A stretch of 20,834 nt of DNA from a virus, in IMG/VR virus record IMGVR_UViG_3300037247_001843, positions 1 to 20,834 of that record, one strand, 5' to 3'. The notes beneath the pieces were generated by a model. The model made no database searches. It was not told the origin of the DNA and worked only from the letters and a program-made list of their open reading frames with translations. Numbering within the stretch: the first letter of the stretch is position 1; each line of letters begins with the position of its first letter. A program made the position numbers and the translations under genes. Positions 5,320 to 13,956 of this stretch are shown here, piece by piece.

Positions 5320-5496
5320 TCACCTGTGACGTTCTGCGCGTCGGATTCGTATCGCCTCCGCGAGAGCGCTCTCGGCCTTGTACTCGCTGAGCTTCATGCA
5401 GTCTCGGCAACATGGGCGCCCATCACGACGTCCCATTGGTGGCCGATCGTCGAAACAGAATGCGCACTCGAGACAACACTGTTTTCGTCGTTTCAT
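5320..5496 (-). CDS. Small Cys-rich (zinc-finger-like) protein, 58 aa
   Basis: ATG at 5496 overlaps the TGA of the 45-aa gene (ATGA). Seen: MKRRKQCCLECAFCFDD with C7, C8, C11 and C14; then GRPCCRDCMKL with C29, C30 and C33; then a charged helix (SEYKAESALAEAIRIRRAER). CxxC pairs separated by 18 residues, the second preceded by 'G+P', resemble a zinc knuckle/ribbon. The basic ends (KRRK, RIRRAERHR) would suit nucleic-acid contact. Function unknown; it is out of character among baseplate genes. A 31-nt gap follows before the next GTG. Confidence 0.7.
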   Translation of the reverse strand: MKRRKQCCLECAFCFDDRPPMGRRDGRPCCRDCMKLSEYKAESALAEAIRIRRAERHR

Positions 5497-6432: not shown

Positions 6433-8427
6433 TCAACCCGCCTGCACGTCCCCCACCCGCTGCCGCTCGAGCATCGTCAGTTCGTCCATTCGTCGAAAAT
6501 ACTGCTCTTCGGTGAGCGATCCGCCCTCGCGCATCTGCGTTGCCAGCGTACGATTCGCCGAGATCCGCCGCAACTCTTCGGCCGCTTCATCGCTGCGTCC
6601 CTCAGTCAGATCGGAGACCTCTGGGCTCGGCGACTCCCCGCGGGGCGACTCCTGCCCGAGTTCGCGGATCTCGAGGAAATTCACGAAGTCGAGTTCGACC
6701 GAGAGCCCATCGTCGACATTCCACACGATCCGCAGGTTCTGCGCCCGAAAGATCGTCTGAAACGCAGTCGCGTCCTGCAACCGAGCGAAGCGCTCTGCCA
6801 CCTGGCGCGACCACCCAATCCCCTCGAGATAGTTCGCGCGCGCTTCCCGCTGCAACCCGCGGAGTTCGCTCGCGCTCGTGAGCGTGGTTCCCCTCGAAAG
6901 CTCTTCCGTTTCCGGACTCGCTACGAGCAGCTCGATCGCATCCCCGGGCCGAAGACGCAGCAGATCGACGCCGTTGATCGGTTCCTCCCACGACCACGCG
7001 TCCGTTGTCTTAAGCTTTCCCTCGATCTCCTGCCGTCCGACCTGATGCCAGATTGACTCGGCCGCGTCCGCGAGCGTCGCCGGATCCGTGATCCCGTCGA
7101 GCGTGAACGTCAGGATCCGATCATCCGGATTCTGTCCCGACGGAGGTACCTCGTTCGCTCGAGCGACCCGAGGCGGATCAGTCTGACCGAAGACCCCCGA
7201 TCGCGGGGCCGTCCCCGGAACGGGATACCGTGCCCACCGCACGCGCCCGAGCGCCGGGTCGTAGGCGCGCATTTCGATCGTCGGGACTTTCGTGCCGCCG
7301 AGCTTCCGCGAAAACCCGAGCGACTCGAGATTGCGCCCGTAGACCATCCGCCGAGCGATGTCCCGATTCGCGTAGAACGTCCGAGGCCGGATCAACCGCA
7401 GCTCGTTGTCCTCGAAGACCGGCACGAGCCCGACCTGCGTTGTCGTCTCCGTGATGTGATCCCAAAGTGAGAGCTGCTGGCCGCCTTGTCGTCCACGCCG
7501 TGAACCGCGCCCCCGCCGAGCGCGCCTCGAGCGAGGAACGGCCGATCCCAGCGTCGGGGCGTCGCTCTCCTCCCCCGCGATCCCGAAGCGCACGCTCGTT
7601 CCCCGCGTGCTCGCCTGCCGCCCGAGCAGCTCACGCACGCCTCGGTCGATCGGCAGATCCATCTCGATCCCGTCGCCAGCCGGCAGCGGAGTATCGATAA
7701 GGATCGCCGTCAGATCTCGACACGCGAGGTCGATCGTGTCTCCTTCCTGCCCGTCGAGCGAGACAGTCCACTCGTCGACGAGCCCGATAAAGCGCGTGGT
7801 GCCCTCAGGCGACCCTGCGGCGCCCGCCAGCCCCCGAGGCACGAGAGAGAGCAAGGTCCCGTCTTCGCGCGTCTGGCCCCCTACTCCGGCCTCGTACGAG
7901 GTCGCATCGACGAGCCCGATGATCACCTCGATTGCCACCGACCGGATCAGCCGTGGATCGAAGGGCGCGTCGCGGTAGTCGATCGTCACGCTTGCCGTGT
8001 CGGCGGTCCGGATCCCATTGCGCTCGATCGTGCAGTTCTGCGGAAGGATGGTCCCGAGCACGATCCGATCGTCGGGGGGCGCGCCCGCGGTCGCGTCCGG
8101 CGCGTTCCCGGTCGCGGTCGTCGTAAGCTGCTCTTGCAGGGAGTCGCGCTCTCGATCGAGATCCGAAAGGAAGAAGTCAGTCGTCTGCGGATCGAACGTG
8201 TCCCGATTCTCGATGAGGAACGTTCGACGACCCTGCACGAGCTCGAGCTGCCCTTCGATGTCCTCTCTCGAGCTCGCTCCCGCGGGTTGCCGGCCCTGTA
8301 GGCTCTCGGTCTGCCCCGCTGGCGCCGTCGAGCCCTGATCGAGCCGACCGTCGAGCGCGGCCGTATCGGCCCCCTCGTCGAGTCGGATCGCGAGCCTGAC
8401 GCGCGCGCTCGGTCGATACGTCGGCAT
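6433..8427 (-). CDS. Baseplate hub protein with coiled-coil insertion, 664 aa
   Basis: Forms the hub that links tube, spike and wedges. ATG at 8427, no clear ribosome site. Seen: residues 1-16 begin a strand (YRPSARVRLAIRL) that appears to resume at ~121 (RIVLGTILPQNCTIERNGIR), interrupted by a ~100-residue polar/coiled-coil insertion. Residues 125-260 match the first hub barrel (ASVTIDYRDAPFDPRLIRSV, IGLVDEWTVSLDG). There is an Arg/Gly-rich tract at 299-317, then a middle part with YGRNLESLGFSRKLGGTKVP at 363-382, a C-terminal barrel with LRLRPGDAIELLV at 490-502, and a helical tail (605-664). Known: this two-barrel layout with 'r.G..i.v' turns belongs to gp27/gpD-type hubs. It is followed by the spike gene, as usual. 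Confidence 0.8.
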   Translation of the reverse strand: MPTYRPSARVRLAIRLDEGADTAALDGRLDQGSTAPAGQTESLQGRQPAGASSREDIEGQLELVQGRRTFLIENRDTFDPQTTDFFLSDLDRERDSLQEQLTTTATGNAPDATAGAPPDDRIVLGTILPQNCTIERNGIRTADTASVTIDYRDAPFDPRLIRSVAIEVIIGLVDATSYEAGVGGQTREDGTLLSLVPRGLAGAAGSPEGTTRFIGLVDEWTVSLDGQEGDTIDLACRDLTAILIDTPLPAGDGIEMDLPIDRGVRELLGRQASTRGTSVRFGIAGEESDAPTLGSAVPRSRRARRGRGSRRGRQGGQQLSLWDHITETTTQVGLVPVFEDNELRLIRPRTFYANRDIARRMVYGRNLESLGFSRKLGGTKVPTIEMRAYDPALGRVRWARYPVPGTAPRSGVFGQTDPPRVARANEVPPSGQNPDDRILTFTLDGITDPATLADAAESIWHQVGRQEIEGKLKTTDAWSWEEPINGVDLLRLRPGDAIELLVASPETEELSRGTTLTSASELRGLQREARANYLEGIGWSRQVAERFARLQDATAFQTIFRAQNLRIVWNVDDGLSVELDFVNFLEIRELGQESPRGESPSPEVSDLTEGRSDEAAEELRRISANRTLATQMREGGSLTEEQYFRRMDELTMLERQRVGDVQAG

Positions 8428-8443
8428 CCGCGAAGTCTAGCGG

Positions 8444-8683
8444 TTATTCTTCCTCGTCGGGAAGACCAGCCCCGCAGACATCGCAGGCCCATCTTCGAGG
8501 GTCAGTCTTAGCACCACAGTCGACGCAGGTGAGCGGTTCTGGGTCCACCGACAGAGCTCCCGGCTGCGGGCCGCCCAGCGACCGGAGTCGCGCCTGCGCG
8601 TCGGCGTCGAACATCGACTCCCCGTCGTGATTGCACGGGTAGCACTGATCGAAGGCAATCCCATGTCGACAACCACCGCTCAT
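8444..8683 (-). CDS. Small zinc-ribbon protein, 79 aa
   Basis: ATG at 8683 overlaps the upstream TGA (ATGA). Seen: an N-terminal Cys/His cluster (C5, H7, C14, C17, H19: CRHGIAFDQCYPCNH) and a C-terminal four-Cys ribbon (C53-x2-C56 and C67-x2-C70: CVDCGAKT, then ACDVCG), joined by a Pro/Gly linker and ending in DEEE. Known: paired CxxC knuckles of this spacing form zinc ribbons, used for nucleic-acid or protein contacts. Two metal sites in 79 residues is dense for a gene in a baseplate operon. It is last in the small-gene cassette; the stop is TAA, 16 nt before the hub ATG. Confidence 0.75.
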   Translation of the reverse strand: MSGGCRHGIAFDQCYPCNHDGESMFDADAQARLRSLGGPQPGALSVDPEPLTCVDCGAKTDPRRWACDVCGAGLPDEEE

Positions 8684-8964
8684 GACGCCACCACCCGCAC
8701 GTCGATCCGCTGCCACGCAGGCCGAGCCCACCGCGAACCTCGAAGAGCGATCTCGTCGAATCCCTTCTCACGGAGCGAATCCATGTCGCGAACCATCGTC
8801 TGGCTCGGGGGAACAAAATAGATTCCGTAACCCGCAGAAACGAGCTCGCCGGCGGCCGCATGGTCGTTGCGCCCAATGACGGCGGAGCCGCTCTCGTAAA
8901 TCTCATCGAGGAGAGCCTGGGCGCGGTTGCTGTTGATACCCTCGGTCTTCGTGTTCTCGTTCAT
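8680..8964 (-). CDS. Small hypothetical protein, 94 aa
   Basis: Not recognised. ATG at 8964 with a strong ribosome site (AAGGGAAGGGGAG). Seen: a polar N-terminus (MNENTKTEGINSNRAQ), helix ALLDEIYESGSAVIGRND, helix AAAGELVSAGYGIYFVPP, then TMVRDMDSLREKGFDEIALR and a C-terminus ending QRIDVRVVAS. The helix-helix-strand order with a Gly-Tyr-Gly turn could be a small winged-helix-like or alpha/beta fold. I make no functional claim. It overlaps the zinc-ribbon gene by ATGA. Confidence 0.65.
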   Translation of the reverse strand: MNENTKTEGINSNRAQALLDEIYESGSAVIGRNDHAAAGELVSAGYGIYFVPPSQTMVRDMDSLREKGFDEIALRGSRWARPAWQRIDVRVVAS

Positions 8965-8978
8965 CTCCCCTTCCCTTC

Positions 8979-9242
8979 CTATTTGAGCGGCTCGACGGCG
9001 TGAGCCGCCAGGCGCGCGGTGATCTCGAGGCGCTCGGTCTCGCTGGGCTCGGAGCCATCGACGCGTCGCACGAAGATGTGATGACCCAGTGCGCAGGTGC
9101 TGCCGGGCATCTGGTAGAGAGAGCCGAGCGGGATCCCCAACGACGAGCCAATAGTCACCCTGAGTTCCAGCTCGCCGTCGTCGTGACTCTCGCGGAGCCA
9201 GCGCGCGAGCGCGGGGGTCAGGCGGGTGTCTCGAATCAGCAT
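8979..9242 (-). CDS. Small hypothetical protein, 87 aa
   Basis: Not recognised. I choose ATG at 9242 (MLIRDTRLTPALARWLRESH), which overlaps the upstream gene by 7 nt; the longer in-frame start at 9281 would overlap more. Seen: an N-terminal helix, a beta part (DGELELRVTIGSSLGIPLGS), a loop with Cys and two His (STCALGHHIFVRRVDG), and a C-terminal helix (TERLEITARLAAHAVE). The Cys-His-His group could be structural or could bind metal, but it does not match a named motif. It ends TAG inside the ribosome site of the next gene. Confidence 0.65.
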   Translation of the reverse strand: MLIRDTRLTPALARWLRESHDDGELELRVTIGSSLGIPLGSLYQMPGSTCALGHHIFVRRVDGSEPSETERLEITARLAAHAVEPLK

Positions 9243-9472
9243 GCGACTACCCGCCGAAGAAAGTCCCAATCGGCAGAACAATTCGGGATAGTGAGTGCCG
9301 TCGCCCTGTCGTTGATCTCAGCGGTGGCCCTCGCGAACGATTCGCTCAGCCGCCGCCGGGCCCGCTCTTGCGCTCTCAGAAGTGCGACGCCTGCGGCGGG
9401 ATCGTGGTCGAGAGCGGTGCCAATCGCGTCATAGGCGGCGAGAGCAGTACGAGTCTGGGCCCAGTCAATCAT
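9236..9472 (-). CDS. Small hypothetical helical protein, 78 aa
   Basis: Not recognised. ATG at 9472 overlaps the upstream TGA (ATGA), which fixes the start; the open frame extends further upstream, but only over the previous gene. Seen: MIDWAQTRTALAAYDAIGTA, then LRAQERARRRLSESFARATA, i.e. two amphipathic helices, then NCSADWDFLRRVVAC with two Cys residues. Almost certainly all-helical and soluble. It overlaps the next gene by 7 nt. Confidence 0.7.
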   Translation of the reverse strand: MIDWAQTRTALAAYDAIGTALDHDPAAGVALLRAQERARRRLSESFARATAEINDRATALTIPNCSADWDFLRRVVAC

Positions 9473-9759
9473 GCTGCGATCCTCCGGCGAGCCTGGCTCC
9501 GGTCCAGGTTGGCAGGTGTGAGCCGAAACGGGTCCAGTGCCGAGATGGGGACTTCGACGCCTCCAGCGGCGGCCGCTTCGGCGGCGACGAGCGCCTTCTC
9601 GACCGCTTCCTCCGCGCGGTTGGCCACGGCCACCTCGGCCCACTCGGCCTCGGTGAGGGTGCAGAGCGGGGCCGGATTAGCAGCGTAGTAGGCGGCACGC
9701 CGCGAAATGTTGGCAGCGAGGCGGAGACTCTCTCGTCGCGCTGCATGCTCTTTTCTCAT
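9469..9759 (-). CDS. Small Ala-rich helical protein of unknown function, 96 aa (116 aa from an upstream start)
   Basis: I do not recognise it. Preferred start is ATG at 9759, with an outstanding ribosome site GGAAGGGAAGGGAAG at 9764-9778. A second in-frame ATG at 9819 (MLLHRDEILLRLGV) has GGAG 4 nt upstream and would give 116 aa. Seen: a basic N-terminus (MRKEHAARRESLRLAANISR), a helical middle with TEAEWAEVAVANRAEEAVEK, an Ala run, and a C-terminus ending LDRSQARRRIAA. No signal peptide or membrane segment. It is the first gene of a five-gene cassette of small proteins and overlaps the next by ATGA. Confidence 0.7.
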   Translation of the reverse strand: MRKEHAARRESLRLAANISRRAAYYAANPAPLCTLTEAEWAEVAVANRAEEAVEKALVAAEAAAAGGVEVPISALDPFRLTPANLDRSQARRRIAA

Positions 9760-9763
9760 CGTT

Positions 9764-9778
9764 CTTCCCTTCCCTTCC
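9764..9778 (-). promoter_or_regulatory. Strong purine-rich ribosome-binding site
   Basis: GGAAGGGAAGGGAAG ends 4 nt before the ATG at 9759 and decides that start. Its core AAGGGAAGGG (9767-9776) recurs exactly before the ATGs at 8964 (8968-8977) and 13956 (13962-13971). The latter is the chaperone gene, the first gene after the hairpins. Confidence 0.7.
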
Positions 9779-9817
9779 ACACCTAACCTAAGCAGTATTT
9801 CGTCCCTGTGAAGCAGC

Positions 9818-9830
9818 ATTCTGCTCCGTC
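9818..9830 (-). repeat. Partial third copy of the ACGGAGCAGAA box
   Basis: GACGGAGCAGAAT, ending in the first two bases of the ATG at 9819. GGAG lies about 4 nt before that ATG, so this copy can act as the ribosome site for a longer form of the next gene. It looks like a local tandem duplication of 9837-9853. Confidence 0.6.
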
Positions 9831-9836
9831 CTGCCG

Positions 9837-9853
9837 ATTTTCTGCTCCGTCTA
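9837..9853 (-). repeat. 17-bp junction repeat (copy A): TAG stop plus ribosome-site box
   Basis: TAGACGGAGCAGAAAAT, starting with the stop codon of the LysM gene. The same 17 bases occur at 857-873 across the stop of the J-type gene. Here the ribosome-site box leads to ATC rather than ATG, so it no longer serves a start. A 13-base partial copy follows at 9818-9830. Confidence 0.8.
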
Positions 9854-10906
9854 GCACTCTGAATCTTCGACCGGAGCCGAGAGCGGAGGGATCACGATCA
9901 GCGTCCCCGCAGCCACCACCGAATCCGGCAGCCCGTTGACGTCCGCGATTCGCCGCCACTCGTCCGCCGTCCCGTAGACTTCCCGCGCGATCCGCCTCAA
10001 CGAGTCGCCCCCGCCCCGAATCGTCACCACAGCCAGCGGAGAAGGCCGCGTAAGGCGCCGCAAGTCCCGGGCGACTCTCTGTCCCTCCGCCTGCACACGA
10101 CGGCTCCTGCGGCCCTGCTCGCGCCGCCAGACCTCCACCCCAAGCCGGTCGACGAGCCCCTCGAAGTTCGTCGCCACCTCGACCGGCGTCTCGATCAAGT
10201 CGACCGCGAGCGCGTTCCCGAGTAGCCGAAGCGCCTCCGCATCCGCCAGAGCCCCTCGAACCGCCGTCAGAGGGATCGCCACCACGCTCTGCGCCGCCCT
10301 CACCCGGTCGAAGATCGCCCCTACACGCGCTCGCATCCCCCGCACCTGCGCACGAATCACGTCGGCGTAGTCCGTGCGAACCGCCTTTGGCTCGAAGGCG
10401 AGCTGATCGTCGGTCTGGTTCTGCCGCGTCCGGAGCTCCGCCGAGTTCGGGGGCTCGTCGAGCGTCGCCCGCGGCACTTCCTGATCGTCTCGTCCGAACC
10501 ACGAGAACCGCATGGTCCACTCGACGTCCTGCTCCCGGAGCCAGACCGGCTCGAACTCGGCGAGGATGCCCATCCGGACGACCTCACCCCACTGGAAGCG
10601 CAGGGCATTCCCAGAGCGCTGAAGCGTGTCGAAGATCGCGACGACGTCTCGAGCGAGCTCGGGCGTTTCGAAGCCGTTCGTTTCGACCTGGCCGCCGATG
10701 AACCGATCGTTCCAGATGCCCCGGAGCTGCATGTCGTTGTCCTGCGCTCCGAGCACCTGCAACGTTGCGACATTGTTCCCCGCGTACCAGGTCTTTTTCT
10801 CCCGGAGCTCGCCGCCGGCCGGGAGGGATCGGTTCGGCAGAGCTCGACCGCCGAGCGTCACCGAACGCTGCGACCCGGTGAGCTCTCGGATGATGACGGC
10901 GGGCAT
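9851..10906 (-). CDS. LysM-domain baseplate protein, 351 aa
   Basis: Baseplate or tail-tip protein that carries a LysM fold. ATG at 10906 has no visible ribosome site (upstream is pyrimidine-rich CTCCCTCCC). Seen: residues 1-145 beta-rich with a WTMRFSWFGRDDQE segment; residues ~160-290 a helical linker rich in Arg and Ala; residues ~300-341 a LysM: GDSLRRIAREVYGTADEWRR followed by IADVNGLPDS and GTLIVIPP. Known: LysM proteins sit between the tape measure and hub genes in contractile tails (gp53/XkdP-like), where the domain binds the tube initiator or the peptidoglycan. Context agrees. The stop TAG is followed at once by the ACGGAGCAGAAAAT repeat. Confidence 0.8.
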   Translation of the reverse strand: MPAVIIRELTGSQRSVTLGGRALPNRSLPAGGELREKKTWYAGNNVATLQVLGAQDNDMQLRGIWNDRFIGGQVETNGFETPELARDVVAIFDTLQRSGNALRFQWGEVVRMGILAEFEPVWLREQDVEWTMRFSWFGRDDQEVPRATLDEPPNSAELRTRQNQTDDQLAFEPKAVRTDYADVIRAQVRGMRARVGAIFDRVRAAQSVVAIPLTAVRGALADAEALRLLGNALAVDLIETPVEVATNFEGLVDRLGVEVWRREQGRRSRRVQAEGQRVARDLRRLTRPSPLAVVTIRGGGDSLRRIAREVYGTADEWRRIADVNGLPDSVVAAGTLIVIPPLSAPVEDSEC

Positions 10907-11048: not shown

Positions 11049-11252
11049 CTACCGCGGATCGCGCTCTTCTATCAGAGCCATGGCGCGATCTATCGATTCG
11101 CGCGCACGGCGGAGATCGTCTTTACTCACCCCGAGCGCCGCACGAGCGGTCTCCTCGGTCGCATCAGAAGGGAGAAGACCCATCCTCTGAAGCTGCGCCA
11201 CGAACGGATCCGGCTTTTCTTCCATGCAGCACCGTCGCCCGTGTCGGACCAC
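11049..11252 (-). CDS. Small hypothetical protein after the tape measure, 67 aa (or 58 aa)
   Basis: I do not recognise it. Candidate starts are GTG at 11252 (67 aa) and ATG at 11225 (58 aa, MEEKPDPFVAQLQRMG). Neither has a clear ribosome site; the first nine residues of the long form (Arg/Cys-rich) look non-native, so I lean to 11225. The body is helical and charged: TEETARAALGVSKDDLRRARESI in separate segments, ending IEERDPR. It lies 23 nt after the tape-measure stop. Possibly a small structural or accessory protein; no function is evident. Confidence 0.5.
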   Translation of the reverse strand: MVRHGRRCCMEEKPDPFVAQLQRMGLLPSDATEETARAALGVSKDDLRRARESIDRAMALIEERDPR

Positions 11253-13485: not shown

Positions 13486-13956
13486 TCCCTCTTCGTCTGC
13501 CGTCGAAGGCTCAGTGAGCTTGTCGTACTCGCTCGAGATGAGGTTCCGGCCACGCTGAGAAAGCGCCTTCCAGAGCCACTCGCGCTTCGCCCGCTGCAAC
13601 GGCATCGCTCGAGCGTCCCGCGCTTCGTCGCTGTCCTCAGGCTCATCCGTCGAGAGCCGCTCCGCCTCATCGGCCACCGTGCGGATCGCGTCGCGCACCA
13701 TCGCCGAGCCGCGCGCGATGTTCATCTCACCGCGCTTCCCCATCGCCTTCTGAAGGATCGCCTGCTCCTGCCGCAACCCATGCGACTCGAGCAGGAGCCA
13801 GAACCCGACCTCCTCGCTGCCGCGCATGAAGACACCCGGTGCGCTCACCCCAGGCGGCACTTCGATCCACCGCCGATGCCGCGGGATGTCCGTCGCTCCT
13901 CCATCTGCGAGCGAGCCCGTGTGCCGCTCAAACGCCTGCTCAAAAACGTTGCTCAT
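13477..13956 (-). CDS. Tail assembly chaperone (gpG-like), 159 aa, zero-frame product
   Basis: Start is the ATG at 13956, 5 nt after a strong ribosome site (AGAAGGGAAGGG). An upstream in-frame start at 14001 would sit inside hairpin 2. Seen: MSNVFEQAFERHTGSLADGG, a VPPGVSAPGVFMRGSEEVGF segment, helices through residues 75-140, and an acidic Ser/Glu/Asp-rich C-terminus ending EEGNG. Known: the gene between tube and tape measure in long-tailed phages encodes chaperones G and GT, made from one gene through a programmed -1 frameshift, that coat the tape measure and recruit tube subunits. The slippery sequence GGGAAAC lies three codons before the stop. I am sure of the role from context and frameshift site more than from sequence similarity. 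Confidence 0.8.
   Translation of the reverse strand: MSNVFEQAFERHTGSLADGGATDIPRHRRWIEVPPGVSAPGVFMRGSEEVGFWLLLESHGLRQEQAILQKAMGKRGEMNIARGSAMVRDAIRTVADEAERLSTDEPEDSDEARDARAMPLQRAKREWLWKALSQRGRNLISSEYDKLTEPSTADEEGNG
13483..13489 (-). promoter_or_regulatory. Programmed -1 ribosomal frameshift site GGGAAAC
   Basis: The zero frame reads GAG GGA AAC GGA TAG; the heptamer G GGA AAC is in the correct X XXY YYZ phase to slip back one base to GGG AAA. After the slip, translation continues CGG ATA GCG and stays open for 75 codons to 13256. Known: lambda gene G uses GGGAAAG in the same position. A 5-bp hairpin (TCCAC/GTGGA, 13444-13458) lies about 24 nt downstream; it is too weak and far to claim as the stimulator. 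Confidence 0.85.

Follow-up and report, generated by a model that had tools for sequence, protein, structure and literature searches.

A probable moron-like gene cassette between the LysM and baseplate hub genes of a contractile-tail phage

Morons are extra genes that stand between genes adjacent in related phages, and Mu-like Pseudomonas phages carry fixed plastic regions with short genes, some of which are anti-CRISPR genes (PMC4378225). In addition, homing nucleases have been documented near structural genes and at the boundaries of exchange (PMC10448857). Small accessory genes in a variable slot are already a well-known kind of feature, and the five-gene cassette described here, located between a LysM-type gene and a baseplate hub gene, fits the moron kind in its position and its absence from relatives, as judged from sequence comparison.

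The cassette shares with described morons (PMC4378225) an insertion between two genes that adjoin one another in relatives, a codon usage unlike that of the neighbours, and dispensability for assembly in relatives. However, it comprises five genes instead of one, has no recognisable promoter or terminator, does not differ in G+C content, and is predicted to be expressed late. Similarly, the plasticity regions of the Mu-like Pseudomonas phages are fixed sites between core genes that hold different short genes in different phages, although they belong to another phage group, the site in our case is the LysM-hub junction, and no anti-CRISPR match was found here. HEG insertions and islands (PMC10448857) also have a counterpart, in that an HNH gene lies at exactly this junction in two relatives and at nearby junctions in others, whereas the cassette itself is without a recognisable nuclease. 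The insertion, its absence from relatives and the repeated use of its site were shown by sequence comparison. We consider that these are best explained by a lineage-specific, moron-like accessory cassette at a junction that has repeatedly been given unrelated genes, and we put the probability of this reading at roughly 80%.

Layout and coding support of the cassette

The window, that is, the whole stretch of DNA analysed, is a 20,834-base virus record (IMG/VR IMGVR_UViG_3300037247_001843) with almost all coding on the minus strand, and it encodes the tail of a contractile-tail phage. On the basis of gene order and general knowledge, we take three minus-strand genes to be those of the sheath (16902-14704), the tube (14676-14245) and the tape measure (13246-11276). 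The cassette is flanked upstream by the gene of a LysM-type baseplate/tail protein (9851-10906) and downstream by that of a baseplate hub protein (6433-8427), both on the minus strand and both recognised by a weak profile match; the hub start, MPTYRPSARVRL, is conserved in relatives, and the window contains further baseplate genes. From the LysM stop to the hub start, the whole insertion occupies 1,423 nt (8428-9850, minus strand).

All five cassette genes are ATG-started, lie on the minus strand and tile positions 9759-8444. Gene 1 (9469-9759) encodes a basic, Ala-rich and probably helical protein of 96 aa, and its start at 9759, with a strong purine-rich ribosome site at 9767-9778, is better placed than a start at 9819. 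The start of gene 2 (9236-9472; 78 aa, probably helical) overlaps the gene 1 stop by 4 nt, and gene 3 (8979-9242; 87 aa, mixed alpha/beta) in turn overlaps gene 2 by 7 nt. Gene 4 (8680-8964; 94 aa) follows after a 14-nt gap and has its own strong purine-rich ribosome site at 8968-8979, whereas gene 5 (8444-8683; 79 aa), which encodes an acidic protein (pI 4.4) with two Cys/His clusters, overlaps gene 4 by 4 nt. Altogether, the chain spans 1,377 nt of the 1,423-nt LysM-hub interval. None of 400 dinucleotide shuffles reached such a chain (best ATG-only chain 1,113 nt, median 336 nt), and the arrangement is therefore not a matter of chance, which bears out the tight chain of five genes of 78-96 aa described in the initial annotation.

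Codon usage gave a less uniform picture. The synonymous codon usage of the five genes (0.11 to -0.18 bits) is below that of the core genes (0.12-0.33 bits), and the coding support that it provides is clear for gene 4, the best of the five, and within the range of spurious ORFs for the other four. The G+C content of the cassette (61-68%) does not differ from that of its surroundings (64%). In our reading, these are real genes, although of a foreign style. An antisense reading of the region was also considered and rejected: on the plus strand, the long frames begin with GTG or TTG and are rich in Arg, and the chain of ATG frames on the minus strand, with its ribosome sites, makes a far better case.

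The initial annotation had further held that the core of the cassette ribosome sites differs from that of most neighbours. The motif GGAAGGGAAGGG indeed precedes two of the five genes, against a chance expectation of 0.06; however, a copy with a single mismatch also precedes the core gene that starts at 13956, and the motif is thus not specific to the cassette.

A scan of positions 8300-10000, which covered sigma-70-type promoters only, found no promoter or terminator consensus. Together with the strand of the genes and their closeness to LysM, this suggests late co-transcription and translational coupling. The five genes would ride the late tail-operon mRNA, with translation beginning at the strong ribosome site that lies 91 nt past LysM, and the overlapping stops and starts would couple the translation of successive genes, a second strong site being available before gene 4. 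A 12-nt direct repeat, TTCTGCTCCGTC, was also observed at 9819-9851 of the window, with a 21-nt spacing; it touches both the LysM stop codon and the cassette leader.

The LysM-hub junction across related lineages

Related loci were collected with sheath pattern scans, which led to 32 viral loci, and with a sheath alignment, which led to 78 and, in bacterial genome bins, to four prophage-like loci. After removal of near-duplicates, the LysM-hub junction could be compared across 49 lineages, including the window. The hub start was taken as the earliest in-frame start, as the profile model begins inside the hub, so that each resulting gap is a lower bound. Measured in this way, the gap has a median of 1 nt and is below 100 nt in 40 of the 49 lineages, with the LysM stop and the hub start usually touching or overlapping. 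In the nearest relative (L002), the two genes overlap by 1 nt; with only 48% of its hub residues in common with the window, this relative is not a near-identical empty site.

Gaps of at least 100 nt were found in the remaining nine lineages (134, 198, 256, 383, 456, 1,004, 1,035 and 1,280 nt, and 1,423 nt in the window), and the content of the eight other enlarged junctions is unrelated and differs from case to case. One holds a reverse-strand DNA methyltransferase gene (L029, 18493-19170, minus strand; phrog_111, E 7.5e-16) and two hold reverse-strand HNH endonuclease genes (L052, 19558-20196, minus strand, E 7.2e-48; L087, 5838-6143, minus strand, E 5.3e-28). The others contain an 84-aa Cys-rich protein near DUF7455 at an E value of 6e-4, below the cut-off (L016), a reverse-strand protein with weak similarity to phrog_1590 (L065), a small protein whose N-terminus is hydrophobic (L083), a reverse-strand frame of 62 aa (L050), or no clear gene (L021).

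On the hub tree, the distribution of insertions needs nine changes, at least seven of which are forced by well-supported branches. The window groups with L002 in a set of 11 lineages, and the other 10 are without an insertion. As the tree thus places the window among lineages that lack an insertion, and as the content varies from one lineage to another, the insertion is most readily explained as a gain, and the junction as one that has been reused; on this comparison, the cassette is specific to its lineage and occupies a site used repeatedly. The locus was found to be variable, not invariant, among relatives. Moreover, as most relatives have nothing at the site, the cassette appears dispensable for assembly in the group, in agreement with the earlier proposal that none of the five genes is needed for that purpose.

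Other junctions of the tail module are enlarged as well. Of 53 lineages, 32 have an enlarged junction between the tape measure and LysM, of up to 2.3 kb (e.g., L021, L029 and L074), so that enlargement is more frequent there than at the LysM-hub junction; one family found there is common to 10 loci and may belong to the core proteins of a subgroup. In addition, a single reverse-strand HNH family occurs at three late-tail junctions, namely at LysM-hub (L052 and L087) and at the tape measure-LysM or sheath-tube junction (L021, L060, L078, L084 and L088).

The visits of this HNH family to the three junctions in relatives would be consistent with a different origin of the cassette, as debris of homing or mobile elements that was brought in as cargo or flotsam, with some of the frames decaying or newly arisen. 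The overlap in codon usage between four of the five genes and spurious frames points the same way, as do the nuclease genes documented at the boundaries of exchange (PMC10448857). Nevertheless, we regard such an origin as unlikely, as profile searches detected no nuclease signature in the five cassette proteins, and decaying DNA is unlikely to keep a chain of five intact, overlapping ATG frames served by two strong ribosome sites.

Cassette proteins and their relatives

Searches of Pfam, PHROGs, NCBIfam and PADLOC revealed no relative of any of the five cassette proteins, with sub-threshold noise only, and no homologue of any of them was found in the 87 related phage and prophage loci, in which the flanking genes are widely represented (hub in 57 and LysM in 61 loci, and tube in 81, counting the window). 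When proteins 3, 4 and 5 and the hub, LysM and sheath proteins were compared with sequenced phages by tblastn, no match was obtained. Several candidates were rejected. Pattern scans of viral contigs had pointed to L034 as a relative of gene 4 and to L035 as a relative of gene 3, where the match crosses stops or sits in an unrelated frame; weak matches of genes 3, 4 and 5 in the whole records of relatives were likewise not accepted, the best of them (5.7e-4), for the Cys-rich gene 5, running through two stops.

These results also bear on whether the five proteins might have been added to the tail of this phage as tail or baseplate parts specific to its lineage, or as assembly chaperones, for instance to suit a particular host surface. 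The cassette lies inside the run of baseplate genes on the same strand and would be made with it, and the hub and LysM genes beside it evolve rapidly. However, the absence of all five from the 87 loci, the lack of any match to a tail family, the small size of the proteins, one of which is Cys-rich, and the mostly non-structural nature of the identifiable content of this site in other lineages together make a virion role improbable. No homology to known baseplate parts was found, and the description of the proteins as unlike virion components was upheld. Under the accessory-cassette reading, the products would instead be small soluble cytoplasmic proteins, one of them probably zinc-binding, and not parts for virion assembly.

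The features of the individual proteins are in line with the initial annotation on two further points. None of the five contains a hydrophobic run of sufficient length to form a membrane helix (the highest 19-residue mean is 1.43), in agreement with the proposal that they look soluble, and the two zinc-type clusters reported for one protein are present in gene 5, as paired Cys/His knuckles (C5/H7/C14/C17 and C53/C56/C67/C70). From these pairs, gene 5 probably encodes a small zinc protein; its comparison with the curated zinc-ribbon family DZR gave an E value of 0.017 and 15.7 bits, below the cut-off of 27.3.

Structure modelling of genes 3 and 4 yielded no confident fold, the model of gene 4 being of low confidence and without a structural match. 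The model of gene 3 (pLDDT 57, with no alignment behind it) resembles the HPr fold, and almost every one of its top matches among solved structures is an HPr or Crh protein (Z 5.5 over 76 of 87 residues, rmsd 2.9; best Foldseek probability 0.72, E 0.21). That gene 3 is HPr-like and interferes with host sugar uptake or nitrogen regulation, so that the cassette rewires host metabolism, is nevertheless very improbable, as a Z below 8 may reflect a common arrangement only, the sequence gave no signal of the PTS-HPr family (no Pfam or PDB sequence match; shuffle z 0.85), and the catalytic histidine is not evident; we keep it as a weak lead only.

Possible roles and other orphan genes

The initial annotation had named host takeover, anti-defence and superinfection exclusion as possible functions. 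An accessory nature fits the insertion and its absence from relatives, but two of the three functions fare worse: superinfection exclusion is less likely because the proteins have no membrane segments, and early takeover is argued against by the position and strand of the genes, which would favour late expression along with the tail genes. In addition, PADLOC, Pfam and fold comparisons, including Foldseek, provided no evidence for takeover, anti-defence or exclusion, although a new family would escape such a match. Anti-defence or host modulation is plausible, and the cassette may be considered a candidate for either. It is a tentative guess that the cassette tunes the host, or blocks its defence or a rival phage, late in infection. 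More doubtful is the wider proposal that the LysM-hub junction is a late-operon slot at which genes for counter-defence and competition between phages are swapped, with the five orphan families serving as new inhibitors of host defence.

The LysM-hub slot offers a simple handle on accessory genes in an uncultured phage group, with anything between the two genes being extra. As the slot holds a DNA methyltransferase and HNH endonucleases in relatives, the orphan genes found there are sensible candidates for functional screens.

Small orphan genes were also observed at two other enlarged junctions of the window, one encoding 58 aa with CxxC pairs (5320-5496, minus strand) and one encoding 67 aa (11049-11252, minus strand). 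The codon usage of both is unlike that of the core genes, and relatives of them were found in 0 of the 87 loci. Finally, related tail modules were found in bacterial genome bins (L036, L037, L038 and L039) that carry the labels delta proteobacterium, Armatimonadetes, proteobacterium and Methylocystis, hinting at a wide host range of this phage group.
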